This document shows, piece by piece, positions 1,795 through 60,571 of a stretch of DNA of 64,000 nucleotides. Position 1 is the first letter of the stretch, and each line of letters starts with the position of its first letter. The notes beneath the pieces were generated by a model. That model made no database searches, was not told the DNA's origin, and saw nothing but the letters and a program-made list of their open reading frames with translations. The position numbers and the translations under genes were made by a program. Source of the stretch: a virus. The DNA lies in the IMG/VR virus record IMGVR_UViG_3300033571_010557, positions 1 through 64,000 of that record. One strand, written 5' to 3'.

Positions 1795-3048
1795 ATGAGC
1801 ATTTTCATACCAGGTACTCTCACATTCGTTCTCGACGCTAGCTTTGGTAGTTCAGGCAAGGGTAAGTTGTCCGCTTTCCTAACCAAGAATAACAAGGAAA
1901 AGTTTAAATTCTCATTCTTGGTGACCTCCAATAGTGCCAACGCTAGCCATACTGTCATTGACGGTGACAAGAAAATAGTCTTCAAAGCACTTCCATCTGG
2001 AAGCTTCTACCACGAGAACATTGAGAAGGTTTTCATAAGTCCAGGGGCCAGTTTTAAAATAAACGATCTGCTTAATGAAATAGAAGCGACTGGGATACCG
2101 AGAAATAAGGTGATGATTCACCCCTTGGCAACCGTTATAACAGATGATGATGCCTCCTTCGAGAGAGGTGAGGTAGACCTCGACGGCGCACCGGTGACCT
2201 CACATTCTGGCACTATAAGCACCGGATCTACCTGCTCTGGGTCCGGTGCCGCTCTCGCCAAGAAGGTTCTCAGGAGAGGATCCCTCGCCCATCAATACCA
2301 AGAGATAGCTGATATGATAGGCGTCACGGAGAATGCTATTATGGATCTTCTAGACGCTGGCCACAGTGGACTCTTCGAGATAGGTCAGGGATTCCCCCTC
2401 AGCTTGAATCATCATAGATTTGCTCCCCACACCACGTCCAGAAACGTCACGGTTTCCTCGGCCTTGAACGATGCCATGCTACCACCGGCTTACGCTGGTC
2501 CGGTCATTCTCAATTTCAGGACTTACCCGATAAGGATCAACTCCAAGAAATTCATTGGTACCGATGGTTCTCATCTAACATGGGATGAAGTAAAAGAAGG
2601 TGTTCCGCATAAGGTGGTGTCCTCCTATAGCGGAAATTGGTATCCGGATCAAGAGGAGATTACTTGGGAGGAAGTGGAAAGATCCTCTGGCGGCATCATA
2701 GAAGATTCCATAAAGAATACTACACTAACAAAGCTTCCCAGGAGAATAGCCACCTTCTCAGTTGAGAATCTACTGGAGGCCATCAGATACAACTCGTCCA
2801 GTGCGGGAGTTTTTCTTTCCATAAATTTCATTAACCACGTCTCAAACGCGGTAACTGGAGTTCGTGATGCCGAATCACTGTTCGATGATAAGGTTAATAA
2901 GTGGGTGGAGTCGAACATTCCACCGAAATTCGAATCATCGGTGGCTTTTTACGGAACTGGTCAAGGTACGGATGACTTCGTATTCGATGATTCAGCTGTT
3001 CCATCCTTCCGTGCGTTAATTCAGAGTGAACAAAGCCCCCTTCCGTAA
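1795..3048 (+). CDS. Adenylosuccinate synthetase homologue with PurZ-type active site
   Basis: A 417-residue member of the PurA family. The GTP-binding loop reads FGSSGKGK at residues 17-24, where cellular PurA has WGDEGKGK, so the catalytic aspartate (Asp13 in E. coli) is serine here (Ser19). The NAGHT motif is NASHT (49-53), keeping the catalytic histidine. The TTGRGIGP region is ISTGSTCSGSGAA, followed by KKVLRRG. LFEIGQG matches the PurA MFEGAQG region. Loss of this aspartate is, as I recall, the hallmark of phage PurZ, which joins aspartate to 2-amino-dGMP-type substrates on the route to diaminopurine DNA. The length is nearer PurA (about 430) than typical PurZ (about 340-370). PurZ-like chemistry is an inference; a purine salvage enzyme or another base-modifying ligase is possible. 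Confidence 0.75.
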   Translation: MSIFIPGTLTFVLDASFGSSGKGKLSAFLTKNNKEKFKFSFLVTSNSANASHTVIDGDKKIVFKALPSGSFYHENIEKVFISPGASFKINDLLNEIEATGIPRNKVMIHPLATVITDDDASFERGEVDLDGAPVTSHSGTISTGSTCSGSGAALAKKVLRRGSLAHQYQEIADMIGVTENAIMDLLDAGHSGLFEIGQGFPLSLNHHRFAPHTTSRNVTVSSALNDAMLPPAYAGPVILNFRTYPIRINSKKFIGTDGSHLTWDEVKEGVPHKVVSSYSGNWYPDQEEITWEEVERSSGGIIEDSIKNTTLTKLPRRIATFSVENLLEAIRYNSSSAGVFLSINFINHVSNAVTGVRDAESLFDDKVNKWVESNIPPKFESSVAFYGTGQGTDDFVFDDSAVPSFRALIQSEQSPLP

Positions 3049-4043: not shown

Positions 4044-4118
4044 GTCCCCATAGTTCAATGGACAGAACGGGAGTTTCCTAAACTTCAAATGTAGGTTCGA
4101 TTCCTACTGGGGATACCA
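4044..4118 (+). tRNA. tRNA-Arg (anticodon CCT)
   Basis: The cloverleaf folds by eye: acceptor GTCCCCA with TGGGGAT, anticodon stem GGAGT with ACTTC, loop TTCCTAA with anticodon CCT, T arm GTAGG-TTCGATT-CCTAC, discriminator A and an encoded CCA. It reads AGG, the arginine codon that dominates most genes of this phage but is scarce in the capsid-class genes, so it probably supplements the host tRNA pool. Confidence 0.93.
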
Positions 4119-6634: not shown

Positions 6635-8268
6635 TAAAAGTAAAGGCCAAGAAAATAGGAATTGCGATTAGTGGTTTCCCATCATTCGCAACTACCGTTC
6701 TTGACCTTGAATTCGCCAAGCCAGACCCAAAGGCTTATATCCTTAAAGCTAGGATGAGGAATCTAGCCCACTGGGATGGGATGAAGAGATTCTATGAGGT
6801 TGTTGGTAGCACTATTGCAATGAGGAGGGGGTTTCTCAATAGACTGATAGACTTCCTTCGCAATAACGAAATGGACCATGAGGTAGAAGATTGCCTAGGC
6901 GATTATGCCCCACCGGATTTTTACAACTTTATCGAGACCGATGGTTTCAAGTTCGATAAAGTTCAGGTGGATGCTGGTAGAGCGATGATAAGCTCTAGGA
7001 TAACAGCTATAGAATTAGCCGTCTCCTCTGGGAAAACGGAAATATTCATGAACGCCGCTTGTTGTTATCTGGCATCTAACAAGGGGTCCAAAGTGCTCGT
7101 TATAGTGCCATCCAGGAACTTGATGAGGCAAACTTATGATAGGGTTAAGTCAAGGATACCCTCAATAATCGGAATGGTCGGGATGTTTGGGGATGGGGAG
7201 AGACCGAGTGACGGCAACAGAATAATAATTTCTACAATAGCCTCTGCCATCAAATACTCAAGTGACCCGATCATAAAAGGAGTTCACGGCATTATTATAG
7301 ATGAAGCTCATAGGTCTAAAACCAACTCGGTCAGGACACTCGTTGATAACATAGACTGGAAATTCCTATGGGCTTGCTCCGGCAAGCTAACCTATTTGGA
7401 TGATGATATCTCTTCAATGGAGATCGAATCAATTCTTGGAAGACCAGTGTTCAGGGGCGCTGTGAAGTCCAGGCATAGTCCAGTTGAGGTAGTAATTCAC
7501 AAACATGGTAAGAGATCAATTCAAAAAGGAATCAAACTACATGCCTCAGTAAGAGACGGGGTTGAGTGTATGTTCGTCGATTCGGATGGTGAGTCAAAGA
7601 TCGGCATTTATAGATCCGCGAGGCCGAATGGGGAAGTTGACGAGGACCTGTGTAACGAGGACGGTAAACCCATTAAAAGCCTATTCGGAATATGGTACGC
7701 TGATAAGTCGTCTATAGTTGATCCGCCTCCCGATCCAGAAAAGGTAATATACTTTACTTATTCGGACATTGGGATAGTGGAGAACAAGGAGAGGAACGAC
7801 TGGGGTGTCCAAATGATGTCTAAGTTCGAACAGGCAAAAGAACCTTATCTCGTCACGGTAGCCAGGTTGAGACATGCCAAGAAACTATTTAAGAAGGCCA
7901 CGAAAATAGGTCTCAAGGTTGGCATGGTGTCTGGAGAGTCGTCTGGTAAGGAACAATCGGAGACTGTGAAGAAGTTAGCCACCGGGGAGGTAATGGGGAT
8001 CGTGGCAGTATACTCGACAATGTCTGAGGGGGTAGATGTTCCTAATCTAGTGCACCTCCTGAAGATGGACGGTATAGCCAGTGAACAGGTTCTGACTCAG
8101 CAACTGGGAAGGGTTCGCAGGAAACATGAGTCTAAAGACAAGGGATACCTACACATTCCTTCTGACGACCACTACAAGCATCTTGCTGATAAGACTACCT
8201 ATATGGGAAACTATTATTCAAGAGTAGGAGAGGTAGTTATGTTTGATGGGGTTCGAAGAGTTCTGTAG
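6631..8268 (+). CDS. UvsW-like superfamily 2 DNA helicase
   Basis: A 545-residue helicase starting with GTG that overlaps the previous TGA. Motif I is AVSSGKTE (about 130-137), motif II is IIDEAHR (about 222-228), motif Ia is VIVPSRNLMRQ, and the C-terminal lobe has YSTMSEGVDVP and the arginine-finger motif QQLGRVRRKH. This layout matches T4 UvsW, an RNA/DNA and fork-remodelling helicase that dismantles R-loops and promotes branch migration. The size is close to UvsW (about 500). Its 3' end overlaps the first glycosyltransferase gene by 23 bases. Confidence 0.85.
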   Translation: MIKVKAKKIGIAISGFPSFATTVLDLEFAKPDPKAYILKARMRNLAHWDGMKRFYEVVGSTIAMRRGFLNRLIDFLRNNEMDHEVEDCLGDYAPPDFYNFIETDGFKFDKVQVDAGRAMISSRITAIELAVSSGKTEIFMNAACCYLASNKGSKVLVIVPSRNLMRQTYDRVKSRIPSIIGMVGMFGDGERPSDGNRIIISTIASAIKYSSDPIIKGVHGIIIDEAHRSKTNSVRTLVDNIDWKFLWACSGKLTYLDDDISSMEIESILGRPVFRGAVKSRHSPVEVVIHKHGKRSIQKGIKLHASVRDGVECMFVDSDGESKIGIYRSARPNGEVDEDLCNEDGKPIKSLFGIWYADKSSIVDPPPDPEKVIYFTYSDIGIVENKERNDWGVQMMSKFEQAKEPYLVTVARLRHAKKLFKKATKIGLKVGMVSGESSGKEQSETVKKLATGEVMGIVAVYSTMSEGVDVPNLVHLLKMDGIASEQVLTQQLGRVRRKHESKDKGYLHIPSDDHYKHLADKTTYMGNYYSRVGEVVMFDGVRRVL

Positions 8269-9007
8269 GAATCTAGTAATAGCTTTCGTCACTTTCAATA
8301 GGAAGGAAGTTACCGAAATATGTCTTGATCAAATTAACAAGACCAAATTTGGTTCAACCCTCGTCGTCTATGATGACTGCTCCGATGATTTCGATGTTGG
8401 GTTCCTAAAAAGAGTATCAAAGGACGCCATAGTTAAACGTATGGATAGGCCAACCGGGGTGGGGGGCGTAAGATCTGAGATACATAACGAGTTTAAAAAG
8501 GAGTTCCGGTTCATTTACCACACTGATAATGATGCATACCATGATCCAAACTGGATGTATAGGTTACATGAGTTGTATACAAGATACAAACTTCCGACAG
8601 GACTTTTCACTCTAGGTAAGCGTCACCATATAATTAAAGAGATGGGGGGTGAGTCTGTAAACAGAATGTGCCAGGGTGTATCATTCTTTTATGACTTTGG
8701 GTCCTTGGAAGGTATTAAGTACAATAAAAAAGTTGATCCAAGGACTTCCCCTGGATGGGATAATATGACCAGTAGAGTTTTGAAGAGGTTCATAGTTTCT
8801 GGAGTCTCATATTTGGAGCATTTTGGGGCGAACGGACTTACTACCAGGGAGTATTCTGATAACAGAGCTTATAACCCAACAATGTGGCTACAAAACATGA
8901 GAGACTCAGTGATCGAAAGCTTACATGATCAAGGCAAGAGGAGAGAGTTGTTAATGGCGCATCGTGAAATGCCTAGAATCACTAATGTACCTATTTTCAC
9001 CGACTAA
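8246..9007 (+). CDS. Family 2-like (GT-A) glycosyltransferase, copy 1
   Basis: A 253-residue protein from ATG 8246. NLVIAFVTFNRKEVTEICLD and the following VVYDDCSDDF are the nucleotide-sugar binding start of a GT-A fold, and IYHTDNDAYHDPNW is the metal-binding DxD region. The late WDN and HFGANG segments fit the acceptor side. It is a tandem paralogue of the next gene, sharing the MxFxEFCRNLVI start, the DxD region and the ending. It probably glycosylates a phage or host surface component or modified DNA. Confidence 0.75.
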   Translation: MGFEEFCRNLVIAFVTFNRKEVTEICLDQINKTKFGSTLVVYDDCSDDFDVGFLKRVSKDAIVKRMDRPTGVGGVRSEIHNEFKKEFRFIYHTDNDAYHDPNWMYRLHELYTRYKLPTGLFTLGKRHHIIKEMGGESVNRMCQGVSFFYDFGSLEGIKYNKKVDPRTSPGWDNMTSRVLKRFIVSGVSYLEHFGANGLTTREYSDNRAYNPTMWLQNMRDSVIESLHDQGKRRELLMAHREMPRITNVPIFTD

Positions 9008-9020
9008 TTACTATCAACTG

Positions 9021-9800
9021 ATGGAGTTCGACGAATTTTGTAGAAACTTAGTAATAATTTTCGTAACTTTCAATAGGAAGGGTATAACAGAAATATGTTT
9101 AGATCAGATTAATAAGACCAGGTTTGGGTCAACCCTAGCAGTATACGATGACTGTTCTACTGATTTCGATGATAAATTCTTGAGGAGTATATCTACGGAC
9201 GCCATAATCAGGCGTATGAAATGTTCTACTGGACTGGGCAAGATAAGATTCAAAGCGCATAATGACTTTAAGAATGACTTCCAATTCATTTATCATACTG
9301 ATAACGACGCGTATCACGATCCACATTGGTTACATAGATTATTTACACTACACTTAAAATATGGCATACCAGTTTCACTCTTTAACGATCCATACCATCT
9401 GAACTGTGACAACATAATAGTTAATCATGATGGAGTTTCTATAAGAAGAAGGTGTCCAGGAATATCTTTCTTTTACCCCCTTAATTGTCTCGATAGGGTT
9501 CTTTTCTCTAAAAGGTATAGCGTAGGGCGGAGCGGTTTCAAGGAGAGACCTGGATGGGATATTATTAACAGTAAAGCTCTAGGTCGTTTTGCGATATCAG
9601 AAGAATCGTTCGTTGAGCATTATGGGGCCGATGGAGTCAACACTTATTCAAACTACAAATGTACAGCCGTGAACCCAACTCCGTGGCTGCAACAAGGTAG
9701 AGAAGCAGTTTTAGACAGCATTACAAATGAAAGTAGAAGGAAGGAGTTGATTATAAGCCACCAGTGGCCTCAGACTACAATACCGTGTTTCACAAACTGA
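9021..9800 (+). CDS. Family 2-like (GT-A) glycosyltransferase, copy 2
   Basis: A 259-residue tandem paralogue of the gene at 8246. ATG 9021 is chosen because MEFDEFCRNLVI aligns with the paralogue's start; upstream in-frame codons lie inside the previous gene. IYHTDNDAYHDPHW is nearly identical in both copies and should bind the metal and nucleotide sugar. The centre has diverged, so donor or acceptor may differ. The stop is one base before the radical SAM gene. Confidence 0.75.
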   Translation: MEFDEFCRNLVIIFVTFNRKGITEICLDQINKTRFGSTLAVYDDCSTDFDDKFLRSISTDAIIRRMKCSTGLGKIRFKAHNDFKNDFQFIYHTDNDAYHDPHWLHRLFTLHLKYGIPVSLFNDPYHLNCDNIIVNHDGVSIRRRCPGISFFYPLNCLDRVLFSKRYSVGRSGFKERPGWDIINSKALGRFAISEESFVEHYGADGVNTYSNYKCTAVNPTPWLQQGREAVLDSITNESRRKELIISHQWPQTTIPCFTN

Positions 9801-9801
9801 T

Positions 9802-10896
9802 ATGACTCAGTATTCTAGTAATAAGATATTCCACCATAGAGATAGAATTGACGAATTAAAGTCTGGAGAGCTGACTAATCCGTTGCAGGTGTACTTGGTC
9901 ATTTCGGATTTGTGCAATCAAGACTGTAACTTTTGCGCATACAGAATGTCCGGGTATACTACAAATCAGTTATTCGGGGTAAGAGTTAATAACACTGTTA
10001 ACAACAACCCTAATAGGAGAATTCCCTATGAAAAGTGTTTAGAGATTTTGGATGACTGCCAACAAATGGGCGTGAAAGCCATTCAGATAACCGGTGGGGG
10101 AGAACCATCAGTACACCCATTTCATGACAAAATATACCAGGCCGTTCTGGACCGAGGGATGGATCTCGCTTTGATCAGTAACGGAGTTATACTAAGGGAT
10201 GAGGCGATACCCCCATTACTTAACGCCACATGGGTTAGGTTTTCGATCGACTCTAGTAATCCGGAGTCATATGCCAAGGTAAGAAAGTCCACAGTAGAAC
10301 ATTATGGAAGAGTGTGGGGGAATGTGAGAAAACTGGTGTCTTACAAAAAGGATCGTGGGTCTAAAGTAACGATAGGTCTCGGATTCGTAGTGACCAGTGA
10401 CAATTGGATGGAAGTTGAAGAATTCGTTATTTTAGCTAAGGAGTCTGGGGTTGACAACGTCAGAATTAGCGCTGTTTTTCAACCCTCAAACATTGGGTAC
10501 TTCAGTAAATTCTTCAATGAAGCCTACGAACTCTGTAGGTTGGCTAAAGACAAACACGAGGATGGAAAATTCATTGTTTTTAATAACTTTGGGTATAGAT
10601 GTGACGATCTAATAAGAGAAAATCCGGATTATTCCTTTTGTGGATATCAACACCTAACCACTTACATAGGTGGAGATATGAACGTGTATAGGTGTTGCGT
10701 GACCGCTTACAGCAATCACGGCCTCCTAGGTTCTATATCGGACAGGAGGTTCTCTGAATTCTGGAACTCTGAGGAGAGAATCAGCAAACTTACTAATTTC
10801 GATGCCAGATCTTGCGAAAGATGTATGTTTAACGAAAAGAATAAGACCATATTATACGCCATAGACAAACATCCAGAGCATGTCAATTATATATGA
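9802..10896 (+). CDS. Radical SAM enzyme with SPASM-like C-terminus
   Basis: A 364-residue protein. CNQDCNFC (CxxxCxxC) near residues 37-44 should bind the [4Fe-4S] cluster and SAM; ITGGGEPSVHP is the GGE motif. The C-terminal part has further cysteines (SFCGYQ, YRCCVTAYS, SCERCMF) spaced like a SPASM or twitch domain, which holds extra iron-sulphur clusters and often acts on peptides or sugars. It lies between two glycosyltransferase pairs, so it may modify the same glycan or peptide. The promoter of the next gene overlaps its stop codon. Confidence 0.8.
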   Translation: MTQYSSNKIFHHRDRIDELKSGELTNPLQVYLVISDLCNQDCNFCAYRMSGYTTNQLFGVRVNNTVNNNPNRRIPYEKCLEILDDCQQMGVKAIQITGGGEPSVHPFHDKIYQAVLDRGMDLALISNGVILRDEAIPPLLNATWVRFSIDSSNPESYAKVRKSTVEHYGRVWGNVRKLVSYKKDRGSKVTIGLGFVVTSDNWMEVEEFVILAKESGVDNVRISAVFQPSNIGYFSKFFNEAYELCRLAKDKHEDGKFIVFNNFGYRCDDLIRENPDYSFCGYQHLTTYIGGDMNVYRCCVTAYSNHGLLGSISDRRFSEFWNSEERISKLTNFDARSCERCMFNEKNKTILYAIDKHPEHVNYI

Positions 10897-10931: not shown

Positions 10932-11366
10932 ATGAATCGGTTATTGCCAATCACCCCTGATTTATTCGTTCTTGGTGGAAATTCAACATTCACTATTAAA
11001 TCTGTTAAAACTGGTAACAGGTTCACATTCAGAGCAAAGGCGGATAAGGAGAACCCAAGCCGTGTTTATGTGTCCGTTCTTACTGGTCCTGATAATGAGT
11101 CAAATTACAGCTATCTGGGCACCATTTTCCGGCACAACGAGGAGCACGCAGTATACCGACATGGTAAGAAGAGTAGGGTTTCTCCGGAATCGAGGAGCGC
11201 TATTGCGTTCGATTGGTTCTGGAGAAATTCAAAGAATTTACCGGATGGGGTTCAATTCCTTAAATCAGGAAAATGTTGTAGGTGCGGGAGGACTCTTACC
11301 ACACCGGAGTCGATTGAAGCTGGATATGGTCCAGAATGCTCTAGGATACTATCATCGGTATTCTAG
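10932..11366 (+). CDS. DUF6011-like zinc-ribbon protein
   Basis: A 144-residue protein from ATG 10932, five bases after a phage -10 element. The C-terminus KCCRCGRTLTTPESIEAGYG followed by PECSRI is the DUF6011-type treble-clef pattern (CxxCGRxL...GxGPxC), expected to bind zinc. The N-terminal part is beta-rich (FTIKSVKTGNRFTFRAK). Proteins with this module are common in phages and probably bind nucleic acid or protein; the role here is unknown. The end converges with a minus-strand glycosyltransferase-like gene, overlapping by 26 bases. Confidence 0.7.
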   Translation: MNRLLPITPDLFVLGGNSTFTIKSVKTGNRFTFRAKADKENPSRVYVSVLTGPDNESNYSYLGTIFRHNEEHAVYRHGKKSRVSPESRSAIAFDWFWRNSKNLPDGVQFLKSGKCCRCGRTLTTPESIEAGYGPECSRILSSVF

Positions 11367-12021
11367 TCTCGATCTTCCCTACTGACCACCTCTTCACGAA
11401 TTCATTAGCATCTTCATAATCAGTATATTCTGACTTAGCATGCCATTTCCTTATTCTTCCGAAAGACTGTCCACCTCTTATTAAGTGGGTTTTCCTGCCA
11501 GCGGCATGAGCGACATGCGAAAATCCAGAGCACATTCCTACGAAGCATTCGCACTTAGTAATTAATTCCACGGCGCTCATCAACCCGGTGGAATTACAAT
11601 CCACTACTGAGATGAAATTACTCTCAAGTTTCTTGATTACTCCAGCTTTCTCGTTCTTATTTAGTTTCCACTTCCCGGATAGGTGTGTACAACACAGTCC
11701 TTTAATGGTGTCATTGAAGGGTCTCGCATTATTAACAGGACACGTCAACGTTGTATGGAGTCGTGGGGTGTAAACTCCCCTAACTAGCATGTGGTCGATT
11801 ATTTCTATAAACGGTTCATACTCATACAGATACTTCGCCACTTCCAACCTCTGATGACATGCTATAATGTCATTACTGCTCCAGTTGTTTATCTTTGGAC
11901 TTAATGAGAACTTAATTCTTCTCCCAACTGATTTGGCTATATGTATGGCGTTATTCATAGCCAGGAGGGTATCACCGAGTCTTACCCCCTTGCAAACATA
12001 TAAGTCTTCATCATAGGTCAT
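11341..12021 (-). CDS. GT9/heptosyltransferase-like protein, copy 1
   Basis: A 226-residue protein on the minus strand from ATG 12021. The N-terminal GVRLGDTLLAMNNAIHIAK is typical of GT-B heptosyltransferase-like enzymes (GxxGDxL), and CFVGMCSGFSHVAHAAG matches their donor-site signature (GxDSGxxHxAxA), with Cys in place of the usual Asp. It is shorter than typical heptosyltransferases (about 320-350). It is a tandem paralogue of the next upstream gene, overlapping it by 11 bases. Confidence 0.65.
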   Translation of the reverse strand: MTYDEDLYVCKGVRLGDTLLAMNNAIHIAKSVGRRIKFSLSPKINNWSSNDIIACHQRLEVAKYLYEYEPFIEIIDHMLVRGVYTPRLHTTLTCPVNNARPFNDTIKGLCCTHLSGKWKLNKNEKAGVIKKLESNFISVVDCNSTGLMSAVELITKCECFVGMCSGFSHVAHAAGRKTHLIRGGQSFGRIRKWHAKSEYTDYEDANEFVKRWSVGKIETRIPMIVS

Positions 12022-12700
12022 ACAACGCACTCTTGACAATTAGTCTCCCAGGCCACCTCTTTACGAAGTCACTGGCGTCGTCATAAACCGTACACTCTGA
12101 CTTGTGATGATTCTTAAGTATTCTATCTAACTTGCATCCGGATCGAATAATGTTTACCTCTTTTCTGGCCGCATGGGCCACGTGTGAGAACCCAGAGTCA
12201 ACTCCGACAAAAAATGCGCATTTAGTGGTTTCTATGATCGCCTCCATAAGGGGTAGTGAATTGCAATCTATGACTCTTGGGAATTCTTCACTTATCCTTT
12301 TAAGTATTTCCTTTTGATCTCTTTTATGCGTCTTCCAGGACCTACCAGTCAAGTGTATGCAGCAGGTTCCATTTGATTCTGGAAACTCCCTGGCATTGCT
12401 AGACAGGCTGACCAAAGGATACTTCGGTCGTTCTATATGGTCTCCAACACCCCTATGATCCACTATATCAATGAATGGCTCATAATTTAGAAGATACTTG
12501 GCCACTTCGAGTCTCTGATGACACGCTTCCACCGAGTTACTACAACCACTATTCGGCCACCCGTTTATTTTAGCGCTGAGAGAAAAATACAGTTTCTTGC
12601 CAAGCTTTTTTGACATGTATATGGCATTACTTAGTGATATGATTGTATCACCTAGTCTGGTGTGCCTGCTGACATATAAATCATCACCCGAGAAGTTCAT
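12011..12700 (-). CDS. GT9/heptosyltransferase-like protein, copy 2
   Basis: A 229-residue paralogue starting at ATG 12700, inside the end of the DnaB-like gene. RLGDTIISLSNAIYMSK and FFVGVDSGFSHVAHAA are the conserved GT9-like motifs, here with the normal DSG. ACHQRLEVAKYL and EPFIDIVDH are shared with copy 1. The pair mirrors the GT2 pair on the other side of the radical SAM gene. Confidence 0.68.
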   Translation of the reverse strand: MNFSGDDLYVSRHTRLGDTIISLSNAIYMSKKLGKKLYFSLSAKINGWPNSGCSNSVEACHQRLEVAKYLLNYEPFIDIVDHRGVGDHIERPKYPLVSLSSNAREFPESNGTCCIHLTGRSWKTHKRDQKEILKRISEEFPRVIDCNSLPLMEAIIETTKCAFFVGVDSGFSHVAHAARKEVNIIRSGCKLDRILKNHHKSECTVYDDASDFVKRWPGRLIVKSALYDL

Positions 12701-14207
12701 CTTCAATAGATACCTTACCAGTCTGTATCGACTTCCTTTTCTCCCGTATGGCGTTCAATTTCTTCATGCCAGCTGCCACTGCTTCCTCATCATCCTTCTC
12801 GTCATCGTCCCTTCTTTTCCGTGGCTGCTTCTTCTTATATGGTGCTTCGTCGTCATCATCGAAGTCATCGTCAGTGAGATCCCTGGCCTCAACTGACCAG
12901 ATTGCCATTCTGCTAGGTTCGAATCTGCATATAACCTGCCTACTACCTCCATCATTTCTGCAGGCCACTGGGACGATCCTCATTATGTTGTTCACTCTCT
13001 CCTGGTCTGTCTGACAGAGTGCCACAACTAGATCACAAATGGCTACTCGTTCGAAGGCACCAGCCATGTGAGCCATTGATATTCTTTTCCTTCCCGTTGC
13101 CTCTCTGGTGGCACGACATGCGGTCCATATTGGAAGGTTGTAGTCAACGGCAATAGCCCTTAAATCCGTGCATATTCTAACCTTCTCAAGGTAATCCTTC
13201 TCAGACTTGACATCAGATCCCATCAGATCCAGATAGTCGATCATTATTGAGTCGAACTCGATCCCGGACTCGTTCTTCATCTGGTCAAGATAGGTCCTGA
13301 TCGTCTGAGGGGTACATACATAGGGAGCGAAATACGCAATGTATAACTCAGCGTCATCATCGAATATTACATCAGCCCTATCTTGAAATGTCTTTATATA
13401 ACCATCAGTATCTATAAACATTTGCTCCTTTGGGAGCATTGTGGTCCTTATGGCGAAGCGAAGAGCCTGAAGCTCTTCGGATAACTCCAAAGTCAGATAC
13501 AGCACTTTCTTATGTGTTCCAACGCCTCTCTTCAGGCCGTGGAAGGCAAAATTAAGTAAAGTTCCTGACTTGAATCCCTTCGGAGGTGCCAGCAAACACC
13601 CAAGTTCCCCACCCCTCAGACCACCCCCTATTTCATGATCGAAATGGGATAAACCAGTAGGTCTTCTCGGTTTATGATCTACGGATACTTCTTTCCTGAT
13701 AACTTGGGTAACATTTTTGATCGCGGGTGTACCGGTTTTCACATCGAAGGTACCTTGTTTTATCGCCTCTGAGAACCAGTCAACCACTTCTTCCGGGACA
13801 TCACCATTCTTGATCACATCGACCGTTTTGTGGACCATTTGAATGATGGCCCTCCATTGCATGAACTTACCTATTTTCTCTTTGACGTATTCAAAGTCAC
13901 TGATATCCAGTTCGTACAGATCGTCCACTTTCCTCTCTAGGGTCGATCTCTCGGCTGTGTGCTTCGGGTCGTTGATGTCCGGATAGGATTTCCTGATTAG
14001 CTCAAAAAGGGTCTCTCTGGACGGTGATTTAGCGAATCGTTTGAAATATCCCTGTATGATCGAGGCTAAGTGGGAGCATGTAGGATCTTGCAAAAAGGAC
14101 GGTTTAAACTTATCCTGACCAAGAACAGAGGTGAGCCTTGAATCCCTCCACATAGACGCCAGACACGTTTCTTGGAACTCTGGATGGAATGGGCTTTGCT
14201 GAGACAT
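12684..14207 (-). CDS. DnaB-like replicative helicase
   Basis: A 507-residue RecA-fold helicase on the minus strand from ATG 14207. The N-terminal domain is helical. The P-loop is LLAPPKGFKSGTLLNF near residue 200, with GFKS instead of the usual GKT/S spacing. Walker B is FDSIMIDYLDLMG, and WTACRATREATGRKRISMAH resembles the DnaB H4/arginine-finger region. This corresponds to T4 gp41, which unwinds DNA 5' to 3' at the fork. A low-complexity acidic then basic tail (DDDFDDDDEAPYKKKQPRKR) ends the protein and may bind primase or single-stranded DNA binding protein. Confidence 0.83.
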   Translation of the reverse strand: MSQQSPFHPEFQETCLASMWRDSRLTSVLGQDKFKPSFLQDPTCSHLASIIQGYFKRFAKSPSRETLFELIRKSYPDINDPKHTAERSTLERKVDDLYELDISDFEYVKEKIGKFMQWRAIIQMVHKTVDVIKNGDVPEEVVDWFSEAIKQGTFDVKTGTPAIKNVTQVIRKEVSVDHKPRRPTGLSHFDHEIGGGLRGGELGCLLAPPKGFKSGTLLNFAFHGLKRGVGTHKKVLYLTLELSEELQALRFAIRTTMLPKEQMFIDTDGYIKTFQDRADVIFDDDAELYIAYFAPYVCTPQTIRTYLDQMKNESGIEFDSIMIDYLDLMGSDVKSEKDYLEKVRICTDLRAIAVDYNLPIWTACRATREATGRKRISMAHMAGAFERVAICDLVVALCQTDQERVNNIMRIVPVACRNDGGSRQVICRFEPSRMAIWSVEARDLTDDDFDDDDEAPYKKKQPRKRRDDDEKDDEEAVAAGMKKLNAIREKRKSIQTGKVSIEDELLG

Positions 14208-40872: not shown

Positions 40873-41724
40873 GTGGAGAATTTAAATACAGCAGGCTCAA
40901 AGGACCTAGCGAAGCCTATACACCCGAAGGCTCTCATCCCTCAAGACTGGGACTTCGGGAGTGTTCTCAAATCAGCCCAAGACGGTACCCCAGGTAAGGA
41001 CTCTAGAACCTTCATACGATTCTATGACAGAGCGGTAAGGAATTGGCTTCAGCAGACCACTATAATGAACGGTCATAAGATACCGGTCATAAAATCGATG
41101 CCCAGAAAAGCTTTCGCAGAGTACGACCGGTTGTTGAAGGAGCAAGGGAACTTTCAGATGACTGGGGAGACCGCCATGAATGATATTAAGAGGCCCCCAC
41201 TTCCTCTTATTAGTATATCAAGATCTAAACTACAGATAAGATCGTGGGGTAGATCAGTCTTTCCAAACAGGAATTTGGCGTTCATCAATGGAGCGCATGA
41301 CAATAAATCTGGAGACCTTCGTCGAGCAACCGTATACAGTAGAAGGCCGACACCAGTTGACATACCATATTCTATAGAGATATGGACCACTTATGAGGCG
41401 CAGCACGCATGGGTGGCCCAGCAACTTCTCTCTAGCTTCTGGAATAATATCGCCCATTGGGAGACTTCCGATCCCTACTCAGGTGAGCAAACATTTCAGG
41501 TACCGATCCGCCTAAACTCCTTCACGGATAACAATGAGATACCAGAGAACGATTCAGACGCTAATCATAGATGGACTATTGATATAACCGTTGAGGGCTG
41601 GATGTTCCATGATTTGTTGCTGGCCCCGACAGTACAGATAGGTACCAATATCATAGACATAGATGAGAAGTCTGACTCAGACGATGAGAGTTTAACCACA
41701 GAATTGACTTCTCTAGCCCCATGA
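40873..41724 (+). CDS. Tail sheath stabiliser (T4 gp15-like)
   Basis: A 283-residue protein from GTG 40873. It follows the pattern of T4 gp15, as I recall it: a PLISISRSKLQIRSWGR segment like gp15's PRINLHLVDFSYN, then PYSIEIWTTYEAQHAWVAQQ like IYELSIFTRYEDDMFQIVEQ, then HRWTIDITVEGWMFHDLL like IEWSLTFEVNGWMYPP. Length is similar (272 in T4). gp15 caps the contractile tail and joins it to the neck. The last codons overlap the repeat-protein gene. Confidence 0.75.
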   Translation: MENLNTAGSKDLAKPIHPKALIPQDWDFGSVLKSAQDGTPGKDSRTFIRFYDRAVRNWLQQTTIMNGHKIPVIKSMPRKAFAEYDRLLKEQGNFQMTGETAMNDIKRPPLPLISISRSKLQIRSWGRSVFPNRNLAFINGAHDNKSGDLRRATVYSRRPTPVDIPYSIEIWTTYEAQHAWVAQQLLSSFWNNIAHWETSDPYSGEQTFQVPIRLNSFTDNNEIPENDSDANHRWTIDITVEGWMFHDLLLAPTVQIGTNIIDIDEKSDSDDESLTTELTSLAP

Positions 41725-42299
41725 GAATACTGACTCAGAGAATATTGACTTCATTGGCACCTGTGCCATTGAGTGAACAAAATTATACTGGAGAGGTTCC
41801 GGAGGCATTTGTAACTTTGTCCTTGTCACCTTCGATAAGTCTATCTCTATCTCCATCTACCTCTGCATCGGCCTCTGGCCCTAGCCCTTCGGCCTCTGGC
41901 CCTAGCCCTTCGGCCTCTGGCCCTAGCCCTTCGGCCTCTGGCCCATCCCCCTCTGCATCGGCCTCTGCATCTGCATCGGCTTCTGGCCACAGTCCTTCGG
42001 CTTCTGGCCCATCCCCCTCTACATCGGCTTCTGGCCCAAGTCCTTCGGCTTCTAGCCCTAGCCCGTCCCCATCTTATTCCATTTCTCCTTCCGGACCGTC
42101 TCCTTCCGGACCGTCTCCTTCCGGACCCTCTTATAGCCCATCTTATTCCATTTCTCCTTCCGGACCATCTCCCTCTCCTTCCGGACCGTCTCCTTCCGGA
42201 CCCAGTCTTTCTATTAGCCCAAGTCCTTCTATTAGCCCAAGCCCATCACCTAGTCCATCTGGACCCAGTCCTTCACCCAGTCCTTCACCAGACCCATGA
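41721..42299 (+). CDS. Ser/Pro/Gly repeat protein
   Basis: A 192-residue protein. After about 35 ordinary residues, residues 36-192 are a low-complexity array of SPS, SAS and SGPSPS units without charged residues until the final DP. At DNA level 21-bp and 15-bp units are repeated in tandem. It could be a disordered, possibly glycosylated surface projection, a length-variable fibre or a linker. It starts in a 4-base overlap with the sheath stabiliser gene and its own N-terminus repeats that protein's ending (LTSLAP), suggesting origin by duplication. Confidence 0.6.
   Translation: MRILTQRILTSLAPVPLSEQNYTGEVPEAFVTLSLSPSISLSLSPSTSASASGPSPSASGPSPSASGPSPSASGPSPSASASASASASGHSPSASGPSPSTSASGPSPSASSPSPSPSYSISPSGPSPSGPSPSGPSYSPSYSISPSGPSPSPSGPSPSGPSLSISPSPSISPSPSPSPSGPSPSPSPSPDP
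41870..41932 (+). repeat. Three 21-bp tandem repeats
   Basis: Three exact copies of a 21-bp unit starting ggcctctggc lie at 41870-41890, 41891-41911 and 41912-41932; degenerate copies continue to about 42290. Confidence 0.9.
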
Positions 42300-42790
42300 A
42301 TAACCGCGTAATATGGGTTATGGGTCTGTCAGGGACTGGCAAGACCACCACTATAACCGAGTACTCTAAGAGGAACGATGCGATCTACATTGACACCGAT
42401 GATCTACGTGTCACGATGAACAGTGACCTCGGGTGGGGTAAAGATGATCGGTTGGAAAATGTCAGAAGATACGCTGAGTTGGCGAAGGCAATTTCAGTTC
42501 AAAGGGAGGTAATCGTTGGATGTACTACTCCAATGAAATTACAAAGAGAACTGCTGAAAAAAATTCTGCATAACCTGATCTTGGTTGAATTGGTTTGTAA
42601 TCGGGATTTATTGGTTGATAGAAGTGTAGGGAATTATTACCGCAGATGCGGAGTCGATGACAGGGTCCCGTCATTAGCAGGGGTAAACTTTGAATACGAA
42701 CCAACCGAGCATGGGGAGGCGAATTTCGTGTTTGACACCGGTGTGACATCGACGGAAGACATTCTAGAAGAACTAAGGAGGACAAAATGA
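42296..42790 (+). CDS. Adenylylsulfate kinase-like (CysC-like) P-loop kinase
   Basis: A 164-residue kinase. VMGLSGTGKTTTITEYSKR is the P-loop (about 6-24). YIDTDDLRVTMNSDLGWGKD followed by RLENVRRYAELAKAIS matches the APS kinase D-x-[LV]-R...N.DLGFs..DR.EN.RR signature. The end FEYEPTEHGEANFVFDTGVT matches YExPxxPDLVLDTG. CysC makes PAPS for sulfation. A related role, such as nucleotide or polynucleotide 5' phosphorylation, cannot be excluded. It overlaps the repeat-protein gene and the next gene by 4 bases each. Confidence 0.72.
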   Translation: MNNRVIWVMGLSGTGKTTTITEYSKRNDAIYIDTDDLRVTMNSDLGWGKDDRLENVRRYAELAKAISVQREVIVGCTTPMKLQRELLKKILHNLILVELVCNRDLLVDRSVGNYYRRCGVDDRVPSLAGVNFEYEPTEHGEANFVFDTGVTSTEDILEELRRTK

Positions 42791-43215
42791 CTGACCTAAT
42801 AGAAGAAGCTAGGGATGAAGATCTATTCCCTCTCATACTTGAGGATGAAAACCTAACCACTAAAGAGGCGTCTGATGATTTGATTGAGAGGATCGTCAGT
42901 AGTCAGATTCCACATTGTATAACCGACAGGGGTGTGACAATCCCGAATTCAAGTCTCAAGCATTTGAGGGGGTTGTCGGAGGAGGTCAGGATAACTCGAA
43001 CTGACGATTTCCCTGTGAATGATTCAATTGGTATAGGGTATGAAATTGACGAAGATACTTGGAACACTCTGAAAGGTATCTCGGAGGGTAAGGTTTATGA
43101 TGGAAATGAGTTACATATCAAATGGCTTTCTGAGGCTGGACTAGTAGTCATTACCGACAGCGGTAGAATAGTCCTAACTGAGGACGCCAAAACTTGGATT
43201 TCTTCAACACAATGA
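42787..43215 (+). CDS. Hypothetical 142-residue protein
   Basis: An acidic protein (EEARDEDLFPLILEDENLTT at the start). The C-terminal half (LHIKWLSEAGLVVITDSGRI) resembles a winged-helix wing, but no family is clear. It lies between the CysC-like kinase and NrdB with overlaps on both sides. Confidence 0.5.
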   Translation: MTDLIEEARDEDLFPLILEDENLTTKEASDDLIERIVSSQIPHCITDRGVTIPNSSLKHLRGLSEEVRITRTDDFPVNDSIGIGYEIDEDTWNTLKGISEGKVYDGNELHIKWLSEAGLVVITDSGRIVLTEDAKTWISSTQ

Positions 43216-44198
43216 CCGCCACAAAATCCCTCCCAAAGGTACTTCAACCAAGAAAGAATATTAAACCTTATGATTACCCAGAGGTGGCGGAGTTTGCCAA
43301 ACCGATCAGGGACGCCTTCTGGACTGTTGACCATTTTAACTTCACCAAGGACATACAGGATTATGAGGTAGTCCTGACTGATCTGGAACGGTCCGCCATC
43401 AAGAGAACACTTCTTGCCATATCCCAGGTGGAAGTGAAGGTGAAGGAATTTTGGGGAGACCTTTACAAAAAGTTTCCCAAGTCTGAATTCAGCATAGTTG
43501 GATCGTGTTTCGCTGAGTGTGAGGGAAGGCACATGGAGACCTACAGCCATCTCCTCGAACTCCTCGGTCTTAATGACGAGTTCGACAATCTCCTCGAAGT
43601 ACCAGCTATAGCAGCTAGAGTGGATTACATTTCGGAAGCGATGGTTCACGCTTCATCACAGAATCACCAGCATTACGTCCTGACGCTGGCCCTTTTCTCC
43701 CTCTTCGTTGAGAACGTGAGCCTCTTCAGTCAGTTCGCTATTATTAAGGCTTTCTCCAAGGAAAGAAATACCCTGAGAGCCGTTGACAATGCTGTTCAGG
43801 CCACTCAGAAGGAAGAGCTTGTTCACGGCATGTTCGGGACATACCTCATAAATCTCGTCAGGAAGGAAGCCCCTGAGTGGTTCGATGGCGAGTTCTACCG
43901 TATCGTCCACGAAGCCTGCACTAAATCTTATAATGCCGAGCTTGCGATCATAGACTGGATATTTGAAGAGGGTGAGCTTGATTTCCTTCCCAAGTCAGTC
44001 CTCCATAGCTTCCTCAAGAATCGGTTCAATGAGTCAGTTGTCGGTATTGGCGGTAACCCGGTCTTCGAAGAGGTCGGCGACTTGTCTTCCCTCAAGTGGT
44101 TCGATGAGGAAATCAAGGCTGCTGTTCACGTGGACTTCTTCGCAAAGAAGAGTCCGAATTACGCGAAAATAGAGGTCAGTTCGGACGAACTCTTTTAA
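43212..44198 (+). CDS. nrdB: Ribonucleotide reductase small subunit, class I
   Basis: A 328-residue ferritin-like radical subunit. ATG 43212 overlaps the previous TGA and follows ttcttcaacaca, an A/C-rich leader. AECEGRHMETYSHL carries the metal ligands E and H and the radical tyrosine, aligned with EAIHSRSYTHI of E. coli. VENVSLFSQFA and TQKEELVHGMFG supply the remaining Glu and His ligands. With NrdA it makes deoxyribonucleotides for phage DNA. Length is slightly short of E. coli NrdB (376). Confidence 0.9.
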   Translation: MTATKSLPKVLQPRKNIKPYDYPEVAEFAKPIRDAFWTVDHFNFTKDIQDYEVVLTDLERSAIKRTLLAISQVEVKVKEFWGDLYKKFPKSEFSIVGSCFAECEGRHMETYSHLLELLGLNDEFDNLLEVPAIAARVDYISEAMVHASSQNHQHYVLTLALFSLFVENVSLFSQFAIIKAFSKERNTLRAVDNAVQATQKEELVHGMFGTYLINLVRKEAPEWFDGEFYRIVHEACTKSYNAELAIIDWIFEEGELDFLPKSVLHSFLKNRFNESVVGIGGNPVFEEVGDLSSLKWFDEEIKAAVHVDFFAKKSPNYAKIEVSSDELF

Positions 44199-44224
44199 TA
44201 GCTTTCTAAGCTAATCCAAAACAT

Positions 44225-45880
44225 ATGTCTGACACTGATTATCGTTGGTACAACGACGTTTCTAAACAATTCCTCAAGAGGGATTATCTACTTCCCGGAC
44301 AGACTCTAGACGAAAGGGTTAGAGCCATAGCTCAACACGCTGAGAGGCTCAGCGGTAGGAGGGGGTACGCTGAGAGAGTTATACATGCTGTTCAGAAGGG
44401 CTGGTGGTCTTTCTCTACGCCAGTATGGACCAACTACGGCCAAAGGCGTGGTCTCCCAATCTCATGCTTCGGTACTCATATAAGTGATTCCGTTGCTTCC
44501 ATTGCCGAAGCCTTTGCCGAGATCACCATGATGAGCAAATTCGGTGGTGGTACTTCCGCTTATTTCGGAGCCATAAGACCACAAGGCCAAGACATCAAGG
44601 ATAATGGTAAGGCTGGTGGTCCTAATTACTTCCTTCCCCTCTTCGAGCAACTCGTTAAAACGATTACCCAGGGATCTACCAGAAACGCCAGTATGGCCGT
44701 TTATCTGGATGTCGAGCACCCGGACATTAGGAAATTCCTTGAGATCAGAGATGACCTTCACCCGATTCAGAATCTTAACTATGGAATCTGTGTTGGTGAT
44801 GAATGGCTTGAATCGATGAAGGCTGGAGATCCAGACAAGAGAGATCTTCAAGCCAAGATCCTGACGAACAGGAATAATAAGGGCTATCCCTATATCTTCT
44901 TCCGTGATAACGTTCGCAGGAATACTGTTGACGTTTATCGCGATAAGGGGATGGAGATCAGGCACTCGAATCTCTGCAGTGAGATTCTTCTTCCCACTAA
45001 CGATGAGGAGTCATTCGTATGCTGCTTGTCATCCTTGAATCTCTCTCACTGGGATGAATGGAGAGACACCGATACCATAGCCGACATGGTTCTTTTCCTC
45101 GACACCGTCATCACTGACTTCATCGAGAGAGCACGTTCGATACCGTTCTTGTACCGTGCTGTTAGATTCGCCGAGCGTCATCGCGCTCTTGGAATGGGGG
45201 TCCTCGGGTGGCATTCCCTCCTGCAGTCCAAGATGATTCCATTCGAGAGCATGGAAGCCAAGATGCTCAACGCAACCATCTTCAGGCAGATCAAACAGCA
45301 GTCATGGGATGCTTCTAAAAAGCTCGCTCAGGAATTCGGCGAACCGGATGTTCTTAAGGGGTATGGCAGGAGGAACACCACCCTGACTGCCATTGCTCCA
45401 ACGGTTTCTAGCGCAACCATTCTGGGACAGGCTTCGAGGGCTATTGAACCATACCTTGACAACTACCACATCGTTGACACAGCTAAGTTGAAATATACCT
45501 TCCGCAATAGTCATCTTGAGAAGGTTCTCAAAGGTTATGGTGCGGATAAGGATTCCGTCTGGGATTCAATTCTCGACAACAGGGGTTCAGTACAACATCT
45601 AGACTTCCTGTCTGAACATGAGAAGGCGGTTTTCAAGACCTTCCCAGAGATCTCCCCAATGGAGATAATAACTCAAGCCGCTCAAAGGCAACCAAGCCTC
45701 GACCAGACCCAGTCTCTTAATCTATTCTTGCATCCAAAGATGGACACGAAGGACAAAAACGCAGTGATCATGAAGGCTTGGCAGGAAGGCATATCAACCT
45801 TATACTACCAATTCAACGTCAATGCTGCTCAGGAATTTTCCAGAGAGCACTCGATGAATTGTGCTTCCTGCTCCGCTTAG
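44225..45880 (+). CDS. nrdA: Ribonucleotide reductase large subunit, class I, short form
   Basis: A 551-residue catalytic subunit. LPISCFGTHISDS and FVCCLSSLNLS hold the redox cysteines, HSNLCSEILLP the thiyl-radical cysteine with its Asn and Glu neighbours, TAIAPTVSSATILGQASRAI the phosphate-binding loop, and NCASCSA the C-terminal shuttle pair. It is about 200 residues shorter than E. coli NrdA, and the N-terminal ATP-cone is missing, so it should lack dATP overall-activity inhibition. That fits a phage needing high dNTP output. Confidence 0.9.
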   Translation: MSDTDYRWYNDVSKQFLKRDYLLPGQTLDERVRAIAQHAERLSGRRGYAERVIHAVQKGWWSFSTPVWTNYGQRRGLPISCFGTHISDSVASIAEAFAEITMMSKFGGGTSAYFGAIRPQGQDIKDNGKAGGPNYFLPLFEQLVKTITQGSTRNASMAVYLDVEHPDIRKFLEIRDDLHPIQNLNYGICVGDEWLESMKAGDPDKRDLQAKILTNRNNKGYPYIFFRDNVRRNTVDVYRDKGMEIRHSNLCSEILLPTNDEESFVCCLSSLNLSHWDEWRDTDTIADMVLFLDTVITDFIERARSIPFLYRAVRFAERHRALGMGVLGWHSLLQSKMIPFESMEAKMLNATIFRQIKQQSWDASKKLAQEFGEPDVLKGYGRRNTTLTAIAPTVSSATILGQASRAIEPYLDNYHIVDTAKLKYTFRNSHLEKVLKGYGADKDSVWDSILDNRGSVQHLDFLSEHEKAVFKTFPEISPMEIITQAAQRQPSLDQTQSLNLFLHPKMDTKDKNAVIMKAWQEGISTLYYQFNVNAAQEFSREHSMNCASCSA

Positions 45881-45949: not shown

Positions 45950-46474
45950 ATGAACATTAAACTAATCGCAGCAACAGATAAGAACCGGGGAATAGGGCTG
46001 AACGGTACTATACCGTGGAGCCTTCCCTTGGACATGAAGCATTTCAAGGAGACGACTAAAGGACACGTCGTGGTGATGGGCCGTAAGACCTACGAGTCTA
46101 TCCCAGAGAAGTACAGACCACTTCCGGGAAGGACCAACGTGGTTCTTAGTAAAAGTCTTGTCGAAGGGGATCTACCTGGGTGCAGCATATTTAACGGCTT
46201 TCACGAGGTTATTAACTTCTACGCTAGAAAAGAAGTAGATACAATCTATGTGGCGGGGGGTGGACAGATTTACGAGGAAGCTATAGGGTATGCCAGCGAG
46301 GTCATATTGACAGAGATCGATGAATCGTTCCCTGCAGACACTTTCTTCCCATTCGGTCTGGTATCCTGGATCGGGAGGTCTATGGAGTTCTTTCCTAAGT
46401 CCGAAAGTAATCCATACTCGTTTAGAATAATGAGGTACACCAGACCACCCTCTCATCACCTATATAGGGGTTGA
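45950..46474 (+). CDS. folA: Dihydrofolate reductase
   Basis: A 174-residue protein: IAATDKNRGIGLNGTIPWSL at the folate site, then MKHFKETTKGHVVVMGRKTY (NADPH binding), PLPGRTNVVLSK, and IYVAGGGQIYEEAIGYASEV near 100-120. All classical motifs are present. It regenerates tetrahydrofolate for dTMP synthesis beside the ribonucleotide reductase genes; no thymidylate synthase is seen in the window. Confidence 0.93.
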   Translation: MNIKLIAATDKNRGIGLNGTIPWSLPLDMKHFKETTKGHVVVMGRKTYESIPEKYRPLPGRTNVVLSKSLVEGDLPGCSIFNGFHEVINFYARKEVDTIYVAGGGQIYEEAIGYASEVILTEIDESFPADTFFPFGLVSWIGRSMEFFPKSESNPYSFRIMRYTRPPSHHLYRG

Positions 46475-47423: not shown

Positions 47424-47511
47424 GGATAGGTGGCAGAGCGGTTTATCGCGTCAGTCTTGAAAACTGAAACACCGTAAGGTGTCGAGGGTTCGAATCCCTC
47501 CCTATCCTCCA
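47424..47511 (+). tRNA. tRNA-Ser (anticodon TGA)
   Basis: A type II tRNA: acceptor GGATAGG/CCTATCC, anticodon stem TCAGT/ACTGA with loop CTTGAAA (anticodon TGA, reads UCA), a long variable arm ACACC-GTAA-GGTGT, T arm GAGGG-TTCGAAT-CCCTC and an encoded CCA. The discriminator base is T, whereas bacterial serine tRNAs normally have G, which is unusual. Confidence 0.92.
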
Positions 47512-50671: not shown

Positions 50672-51509
50672 TATTAGGAACGACTGCATAACGGTTTCTG
50701 GTAAGAGGGGGGAGGTGGAGAATTATTTCCACCCAATCCATCACAGGAACTTCGACAACGGACTCCAGCTATTTGTCACTATCCCAAGGGAGAAGGTCGG
50801 TGAATCAGGCTGGTTCCTAATCACTCCACGTGCTGTGTACCTTGATGAAGCTACGGTGTTGTTGCGACAGCAGGGAGTGTGTGAAAGGGACGCGATCAAG
50901 AGGTATTTCGTGTACAGGTTCTTTCGTTATGAATTACCACCTCTCGACAACGAGACATACGAGGTGTGGGAGAAGGGGATATGCATCAGGAATAAGGTCT
51001 TGAATCTGCTTAGTGAATCAAGCAGACAGGAAGCGATCAAGTTCATCAAAGATCTGCAACCGGAGAGCAGGAAAGACGTCAACAAGGCTATCAGGGAAGA
51101 TCTTCTGGTCCTGGTCAACAAGGCTATCAGGGAAGATCTTCTGGTCCTGGCTGAAAACCTTGGAAAGCTCCCACCCATCATCAGTAACGTGTGTGAGTCT
51201 ATTATGCGTCTTACTTCGTTCGCTGAGGATTATCTGAGTAAGGAACAAGAGAAGGGACAGGAGAGGAAGTTCGTGGTTCCGACTCCGGTGCCTGAAAAGG
51301 TTCAACAGACCGGGACAAGCAACCTGTGTAACGAAGTAGCCCTCCCAAATAAAGAGGATCCTCACTACCACCTTTCCGTAGCCGTCCTGAACGGACGTAG
51401 GATTCAGTGGAGGACAAGCTCCGGTCAGTGGATCGACTGCGAGAACCCGTCCAAGTATATTAAGAACGGATGGAAATACCCACAGAACACCTACAGAATA
51501 GTACTATGA
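50664..51509 (+). CDS. Hypothetical 281-residue protein with exact internal repeat
   Basis: Starts in an 8-base overlap with the previous gene. The N-terminal half looks globular (GWFLITPRAVYLDEATVLLR), then a perfect 36-bp tandem duplication (51078-51149) encodes VNKAIREDLLVL twice, and the C-terminus (IQWRTSSGQWIDCENPSKYI) resembles a small beta module. Not recognised. Confidence 0.55.
   Translation: MSNIRNDCITVSGKRGEVENYFHPIHHRNFDNGLQLFVTIPREKVGESGWFLITPRAVYLDEATVLLRQQGVCERDAIKRYFVYRFFRYELPPLDNETYEVWEKGICIRNKVLNLLSESSRQEAIKFIKDLQPESRKDVNKAIREDLLVLVNKAIREDLLVLAENLGKLPPIISNVCESIMRLTSFAEDYLSKEQEKGQERKFVVPTPVPEKVQQTGTSNLCNEVALPNKEDPHYHLSVAVLNGRRIQWRTSSGQWIDCENPSKYIKNGWKYPQNTYRIVL
51078..51149 (+). 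repeat. Exact 36-bp tandem duplication
   Basis: Copies at 51078-51113 and 51114-51149 are identical and in frame (12 residues each). Perfect identity implies a recent duplication. Confidence 0.95.
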
Positions 51510-52273: not shown

Positions 52274-52422
52274 AACATTACCCCAAGACACCCGAAGAAA
52301 ACGATTCAAATGCCAGAGTAGGAGCAGTGTTTCTGTTCCTCGGCCTTTTCACCTTCCTCTCTCTGAAATCCTGCGGGGTTTACGACAAGAAGTATTCAAA
52401 CCCAATTCAAATATCCAAATGA
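52270..52422 (+). CDS. Small membrane protein
   Basis: A 50-residue protein: charged N-terminus, one hydrophobic span (VGAVFLFLGLFTFLSLKSCG), then VYDKKYSN. The Cys after SLKS could be a weak lipobox. It overlaps both neighbours by 4 bases (ATGA on each side), so it is very likely translated. Role unknown. Confidence 0.55.
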   Translation: MKHYPKTPEENDSNARVGAVFLFLGLFTFLSLKSCGVYDKKYSNPIQISK

Positions 52423-59900: not shown

Positions 59901-60050
59901 ATGACTGATTCATCACCATACAGACAAGGCGTAGCCGCTCACCGTGCGGGATTTTGGTTTGACGCAAATCCTTTTCCAGCTACTTCCGCAGAGTTTCGGG
60001 AGTGGGAAAGGGGAATGAGCGCGGCTTGCGCAGATTTTTGGCTGGATTAA
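59901..60050 (+). CDS. Ribosome modulation factor-like protein
   Basis: A 49-residue protein (MTDSSPYRQGVAAHRAGFWF, DANPFPATSAEFREWERGMS). The pattern GxxAxxxGxxxxxNPFxxxS.....W..G is that of Rmf-like proteins that phages and bacteria encode. Rmf dimerises idle ribosomes in E. coli; a role in phage takeover of translation is possible but unproven. Codons are GC-richer than the neighbours. Confidence 0.62.
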   Translation: MTDSSPYRQGVAAHRAGFWFDANPFPATSAEFREWERGMSAACADFWLD

Positions 60051-60144
60051 CCCTTGACTTTTCTTTCTCGCCATCGGGGGAACTATAAAGCGCACACACA
60101 GAAGGGGCGGGAGCGCGGCCCCGATAACACCCAAGACTAAAAAT

Positions 60145-60563: not shown

Positions 60564-60571
60564 CTCTCACC

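Follow-up and report, generated by a model that had tools for sequence, protein, structure and literature searches.

A long PurZ-type synthetase gene in a virus record, assigned to a deep third branch of phage PurZ and predicted to use dGMP

A gene in the window, which is the whole 64,000-nucleotide stretch of virus DNA analysed here, is a real PurZ-type gene whose product is probably active on dGMP, an activity that is inferred without enzyme data. The window represents the first 64,000 bases of a 67,366-base virus record (G000) of the IMG/VR class linear, often a fragment. The reading that we favour, with fair confidence, is that the encoded protein is an active third-branch PurZ acting on dGMP, with a reaction product that would be carried on to dZTP and into phage DNA; the use of dGMP, the use of ATP and the presence of Z in the virion are inferences, without activity data. 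The observations for the branch comprise the intact ORF, the Ser, the PurZ residues, the clade, the fold and the genes that co-occur in relatives. In Z-DNA, 2-aminoadenine replaces every adenine and forms a third hydrogen bond with thymine, and such DNA is likely but unproven in the phage of the window, where it is inferred and not demonstrated.

The gene and its main elements are the following (positions in the window):
1795-3048, + strand: long PurZ-like synthetase, 417 aa, ATG start, intact ORF
1846-1866, + strand: P-loop GSSGKGK, residues 18-24; the Ser19 codon (1849-1851) corresponds to the PurA Asp13 column
1939-1953, + strand: NASHT, residues 49-53, base pocket and catalytic His52; His in 27/27 long PurZ
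2173-2211, + strand: insert, residues 127-139, missing from 6/6 canonical PurZ
2572-2616, + strand: insert, residues 260-274, after the PIRI segment, missing from 6/6 canonical PurZ
2719-2745, + strand: TTLTKLPRR, PurZ-type aspartate-binding loop (TGRRRR in PurA; S-2L T273-T276 and R280 per PMC8342488)
2824-2838, + strand: NFINH, PurZ-type ATP-site motif replacing T(K/M)LD of PurA and PurZ0

The start codon lies 14 bases past the stop of the upstream gene (869-1780) and is preceded by AGGAG 17 bases to its 5' side, while the strand opposite 1795-3048 is closed by many stops. The motifs that the preliminary description had listed, GSSGKGK, NASHT, STGS...GSG (STGSTCSGSG, residues 142-151) and LFEIGQG (193-199), are all present, and Ser19 stands on the Asp13 column, which was set by alignment with the PurA sequences of E. 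coli and P. horikoshii, themselves checked against PDB 1kjx and 2d7u. The protein matches Pfam Adenylsucc_synt at 2.5e-17 and PHROG phrog_1211 at 1.7e-39, and the NCBIfam models rank it as PurZ (4.5e-45) ahead of archaeal PurA (1.3e-41) and bacterial PurA (3.9e-17). Its score with the NCBIfam PurZ model NF038379 is 154 bits (145 for MaF61 and 133 for L007), below the curated cut-off of 300, and the window protein is therefore filed as a sister branch and not as a member of that model. As judged from sequence, the PurZ-like match of the ORF is not due to chance, given the Pfam, NCBIfam and PHROG matches and the Ser in 27 long homologues.

The long sequences compared numbered 27, comprising 25 from IMG/VR, that of the window and that of phage MaF61. 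Ser occupies the Asp13 column in 27/27 long and 6/6 canonical PurZ, and Asp occupies it in both PurA. Loss of this Asp had been described at the outset as a reported hallmark of PurZ, in agreement with the finding of Ser in 100% of 147 phage PurZ/PurZ0 and of Asp in 99% of PurA (PMC12884076). The residues of S-2L PurZ that contact dGMP and ATP have been catalogued (PMC8342488), and the window protein is identical to S-2L PurZ in the base pocket (G18, S19, N49, A50, T146 and Q198), at the triphosphate residues (G21, H52 and T53), at the dGMP contacts (R160, T214 and R247) and in the aspartate loop, also next to S23 (T309, T310, T312 and R316). It has Ser51, Ile248 and Leu311 in place of G51, V241 and V275 of S-2L, and Asn347 in place of Q308, as in five other canonical PurZ. 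S19, H52, T146, R160, Q198, T214, T309, T312 and R316 are invariant in all 27 long sequences; in S-2L numbering, G22, S23, T132, R146, Q190, T205, T273, T276 and R280 are identical in the window protein and invariant across the same set. The T309 position is Thr in PurZ and PurZ0 and Gly in both PurA.

The long clade is sister to canonical PurZ (phiVC8, PDB 6fm1; S-2L, 7odx; SH-Ab 15497; NF038379), with which it shares the fold and the SGxxYxDQxE and NFxN motifs, and the window protein has in common with them the Ser for Asp13, the dGMP pocket and the aspartate loop. However, the long clade has GSS where canonical PurZ has GST, carries three inserts and is only ∼30% identical. The T(K/M)LD motif of PurA reads the guanine of GTP. 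It is replaced by NFxN in the long branch, as in canonical PurZ, and ATP or dATP is therefore predicted, by inference, as the energy donor. PurZ0 (Wayne, Ghobes; PDB 7vf6) likewise has Ser for Asp13 and a T in the aspartate loop, but differs in its GSEAKG loop, in keeping the PurA-type GTP motif and in forming a separate clade. The PurZ0 hallmarks GSEAKG and TMLD are not met by the window protein, which has GSSGKG and NFIN and falls outside the PurZ0 clade. L078 and L082, the most diverged long PurZ at the base of the long clade, combine PurZ0-like GSESKG/GSEAKG loops with PurZ-like TKLPRR loops.

Beyond the window, large-phage contigs of up to 341 kb yielded 25 further long PurZ-like proteins, and the Flavobacterium myophage MaF61 one more. 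The window protein used alone as an IMG/VR query gave no match, while query alignments of 2, 3 and 12 sequences yielded 1, 11 and 27 long-PurZ loci, the 27 being spread over contigs of 11-341 kb and including two duplicates, L014 and L072; a profile search of the genome contigs collection gave no long PurZ. With a long-PurZ HMM these loci scored 256-723 bits, compared with 130-192 for canonical sequences. The top-ranking relative in a set of 50,697 annotated phages is MaF61 ORF141 (PQ858689.1), which belongs to the same long branch, has the Ser and is 42-50% identical to the window protein, the figure varying with the alignment used; canonical PurZ follows at ∼30%. ORF141 is longer (447 aa) with a larger insert, and the MaF61 genome has PurB as ORF149 and guanylate kinase as ORF95, both of which the window fragment lacks. 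Ribonucleotide reductase (RNR) and dihydrofolate reductase (DHFR) are also common to both; no MaF61 match was found for window ORFs other than these and PurZ.

It had been suggested that the protein, being longer than typical PurZ, might form a separate branch, and both points hold: it has 417 aa compared with 341-387 aa in the canonical PurZ examined, the extra residues being chiefly 127-139, 260-274 and 297-304, and the long clade is supported at 100/99-100 in three trees. The long clade and canonical PurZ group apart from PurZ0 and PurA with joint support of 98/94, 97/94 and 93/83 in the three trees. A constraint holding canonical PurZ, including OH, as one clade was as good as the free tree (p-AU 0.57); one placing the long clade with PurZ0 and BpsS140 was 14.9 log units worse (p-AU 0.061) and is not formally excluded. 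On these phylogenies, the long branch is a deep third branch of phage PurZ beside the canonical one, with the reservation that grouping with PurZ0 is not formally excluded. In the tree with the most rows, the subclade of the window (90/92) includes MaF61, G001, G012, G013 and G016, and the PurZ of G014 is identical to that of G013; an earlier tree placed the window at the base of the main long group, and its exact neighbour is therefore unsure. The Bacillus phage vB_BpsS-140 (L052:7890-9011) has a PurZ-like protein with GSEGKGK that is neither PurZ nor PurZ0, in a genome without a Lyase_1 match.

The relatives add genes that could continue the pathway. A lyase (Pfam Lyase_1) is present in 10/28 long-PurZ records and in 0/46 canonical PurZ/PurZ0 records (Fisher p of 1.8e-5 by record, 0.008 per base and 0.009 for records <70 kb, relatedness ignored). 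All 10 are best matched by PurB models, and G010 and G026 score above the curated purB cut-off. PRK09285 fits best those of MaF61, G001, G016, G017 and G019, and TIGR00928 those of G008, G010, G025, G026 and the partial one of G012, a split suggestive of repeated acquisition. Guanylate kinase, a kind of enzyme expected to accept dZMP, is encoded in 7/28 long-PurZ records and 0/10 canonical records. Among the other records of the subclade of the window, PurB occurs in 4/6 and guanylate kinase in 5/6. On an 11-kb contig (L068, 1-11072), long PurZ is accompanied by a partial PurB, a guanylate kinase and a terminase-like gene. In Z-phages, dSMP is reported to be converted to dZTP by host enzymes (PMC12884076, PMC12783734). 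From their gene content, some long-PurZ phages seem to encode the route from dGMP to dZDP themselves.

The idea that a phage PurB is unprecedented in a Z-phage was dropped, as the PurZ0 phage Ghobes of Gordonia, which is outside the 46 control records, has an annotated adenylosuccinate lyase nearest PurB (L172:12090-13223, - strand; 151.7 bits with the PurB model, below cut-off). The lyase is not mentioned in the main text of the NAR 2026 paper. Many lyase matches in annotated phages fall in short unannotated records resembling bacterial sequence; unannotated, bacterial-looking records, for example OR846843, OR847499 and OR848501 ('Listeria phage LM'), match both purB and yhaM-like queries.

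An NDT-fold protein of ∼200 aa, for example that at L011:8687-9310, is present in 14/28 records and never in the same record as guanylate kinase; in 13 of the 14 its gene lies no more than 4.5 kb from purZ. It has weak Pfam matches to nucleoside deoxyribosyltransferases, and its model resembles nucleoside deoxyribosyltransferases, MilB and DNPH1, types of structure to which DmtZ of PurZ0 phages is reported to come closest (PMC12884076). Partners of this fold occur in part of the PurZ0 group and part of the long-PurZ group, but the NDT-fold profile misses the DmtZ of Wayne and the likeness may therefore be convergence. The NDT-fold gene and a second conserved protein of ∼220-260 aa, for which no family was recognised, lie immediately 5' of purZ in L009-L014, L017, L018, L075, L078, L080, L081 and L092. 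Four records, including that of the window, have neither lyase nor guanylate kinase nor NDT-fold gene; the other 24/28 have one or more of them.

An AlphaFold2 model of the window protein from a 12-sequence alignment (mean pLDDT 81, pTM 0.84) retrieved by Foldseek phiVC8 PurZ 6fm1 first (6.8e-21) and S-2L PurZ 7odx second, with P. horikoshii PurA and PurZ0 7vf6 below them. Motifs, tree and fold are concordant with the PurZ-like assignment originally proposed. The protein also shares with PurA (E. coli, P. horikoshii) the overall fold, the catalytic His and the conserved phosphate contacts, and its TM-score is slightly higher to archaeal PurA, so that fold alone cannot separate PurZ from PurA, which the residues and the tree do. 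This similarity would fit an auxiliary PurA-like synthetase acting on IMP (or dIMP) that, with PurB, raises the supply of adenine nucleotides without any Z-DNA, as would the presence of PurB in relatives and the length of the branch. We hold such a role to be unlikely, since the PurA hallmarks Asp13, TGRRRR and the T(K/M)LD GTP motif are found neither in the window protein nor in its 26 long relatives, PurZ comes ahead of PurA by score order, tree and Foldseek E-value, and the pairing of guanylate kinase with PurB suits dZMP more than AMP.

In the pathway that we favour, the enzyme of the window would join dGMP and aspartate, with ATP or dATP, to give N6-succino-2-amino-dAMP (dSMP), with Ser19, which takes the position of the PurA catalytic Asp, suited to the 2-amino group of guanine. 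A lyase would then remove fumarate from dSMP to yield dZMP, which kinases would convert to dZTP for phage DNA. Close relatives encode the lyase (PurB) and a guanylate kinase in their own genomes; in the phage of the window these enzymes may be encoded on the missing part of the genome or supplied by the host. Evidence against this reading consists of the score below the curated PurZ cut-off, the long branch, the p-AU of 0.061, the lack of partners in the window record and the family-B polymerase of MaF61.

Profile searches of G000 gave no lyase, guanylate kinase, NDT-fold protein, DatZ or family-A polymerase, and a motif search of its ORFs for a hidden pathway gene added nothing. This absence proves little because the record is probably a fragment. 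The search for DatZ, MazZ and a DpoZ-type polymerase that the preliminary description had proposed found none convincingly present in the 67-kb record; relatives have PurB, guanylate kinase or a DmtZ-fold gene instead. Unlike canonical systems, the window has no datZ and mazZ adjoining purZ, and a MazG-like domain is ∼50 kb distant. The candidates for these roles, both weak, and three further loci of the window are as follows:
51470-52273, + strand: HD-domain phosphohydrolase, nearest YhaM; weak candidate only for a DatZ-like role
52419-54257, + strand: 612-aa protein with a MazG-like domain near the C-terminus (residues 410-528; phrog_229, 6.6e-13); weak MazZ-like candidate
42296-42790, + strand: small P-loop kinase matching Pfam APS_kinase and AAA_33, located shortly before the RNR genes
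43194-45880, + strand: two ORFs resembling MaF61 ribonucleotide reductase beta and alpha (29% and 36% identity; dNTP supply)
45950-46474, + strand: ORF resembling MaF61 dihydrofolate reductase (30% identity)

The HD protein was not accepted as DatZ, being nearest YhaM, and G000 has no DatZ match. MazG-like domains are general, and the MazG-like protein, for which tblastn against phages gave nothing and BLAST showed no similarity to MaF61 ORF62, is no more than a weak candidate for MazZ. A product made as by PurZ might serve only for partial replacement or to alter the dNTP pool (for example, by burning dATP), without a Z genome. The failure to find DatZ and DpoZ in the window record agrees with this, as does the reported consumption of dATP by S-2L PurZ (PMC8342488), but relatives carry PurB and guanylate kinase, which suggests that the product is used as dZTP, and the NDT-fold neighbours resemble by fold the dAMP-removing DmtZ; we regard so limited a role as decidedly unlikely.

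The pocket is not uniform across the branch: N49 is replaced by Gln in 11/27 and T53 by Trp in 10/27 of the long PurZ, many of them outside the subclade of the window. These changes, the long branch and inserts next to the nucleotide site leave room for action of the long branch on another purine nucleotide, giving a different modified base. For this we see very little likelihood, as the window protein keeps N49, A50, H52 and T53 and the co-occurrence of guanylate kinase suits a 2-aminopurine product. That the window protein is inactive or decaying is scarcely credible, in spite of the fragment having no identified pathway partners, since the ORF is intact and it is the active-site residues that stay invariant among widely diverged homologues.

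The branch itself had been overlooked, and its relatives add a phage-encoded continuation of the pathway (PurB and guanylate kinase), with the Ghobes lyase as a partial precedent for PurB. The Z-phages described are siphoviruses and podoviruses that rely on the host for the lyase and kinase steps, and the hosts named are Pseudomonadota, Cyanobacteriota and Actinomycetota (PMC12884076, PMC8599892, PMC12783734). We propose, only tentatively and at somewhat less than an even chance, that large contractile-tailed and jumbo phages, one of them (MaF61) of Bacteroidota, form a third Z-DNA lineage with their own PurZ, PurB and guanylate kinase, in which synthesis up to dZDP would be independent of the host and the line of MaF61 would copy Z-DNA with a family-B polymerase. 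If true, the range of Z-DNA would widen to include myoviruses and Bacteroidota, perhaps with a further polymerase family involved, and long-PurZ phages would offer new enzymes for making dZTP. That part of the divergent long branch makes a different modified purine is less likely than a third Z-DNA lineage but is not excluded.

MaF61 is a cultured Flavobacterium myovirus of 167.8 kb (PMC13269007) with Flavobacterium sp. B330 as its host, and the idea of Z-DNA is therefore directly testable by a single nucleoside analysis; PurZ is absent from the main text of the paper describing it (PMC13269007). Its polymerase belongs to family B, with no family-A match, in which it differs from most described Z-phages. 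Should Z be present in its DNA, copying would fall to a family-B enzyme, and no description of such copying was found. Family-A polymerase matches occur in six other long-PurZ records.

The window contains further features, listed here as minor observations, and its G+C content rises to 0.53 in positions 60001-64000, compared with 0.41-0.49 in the rest:
4044-4118, + strand: tRNA-Arg(CCT)
8243-9800, + strand: two adjacent similar ORFs, the first a family-2 glycosyltransferase
9802-10896: radical SAM/SPASM protein, after the ORF pair 8243-9800
11341-12706, - strand: two adjacent similar ORFs, the first matching glycosyltransferase family 9 (heptosyltransferase)
41721-42299, + strand: 192-aa protein, mostly Ser-Pro-Ser-Ala-Ser-Gly-Pro repeats
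47424-47511, + strand: tRNA-Ser(TGA)
54831-55547, + strand: R2K-clade ATP-grasp protein (Pfam R2K_2, 5.6e-35)
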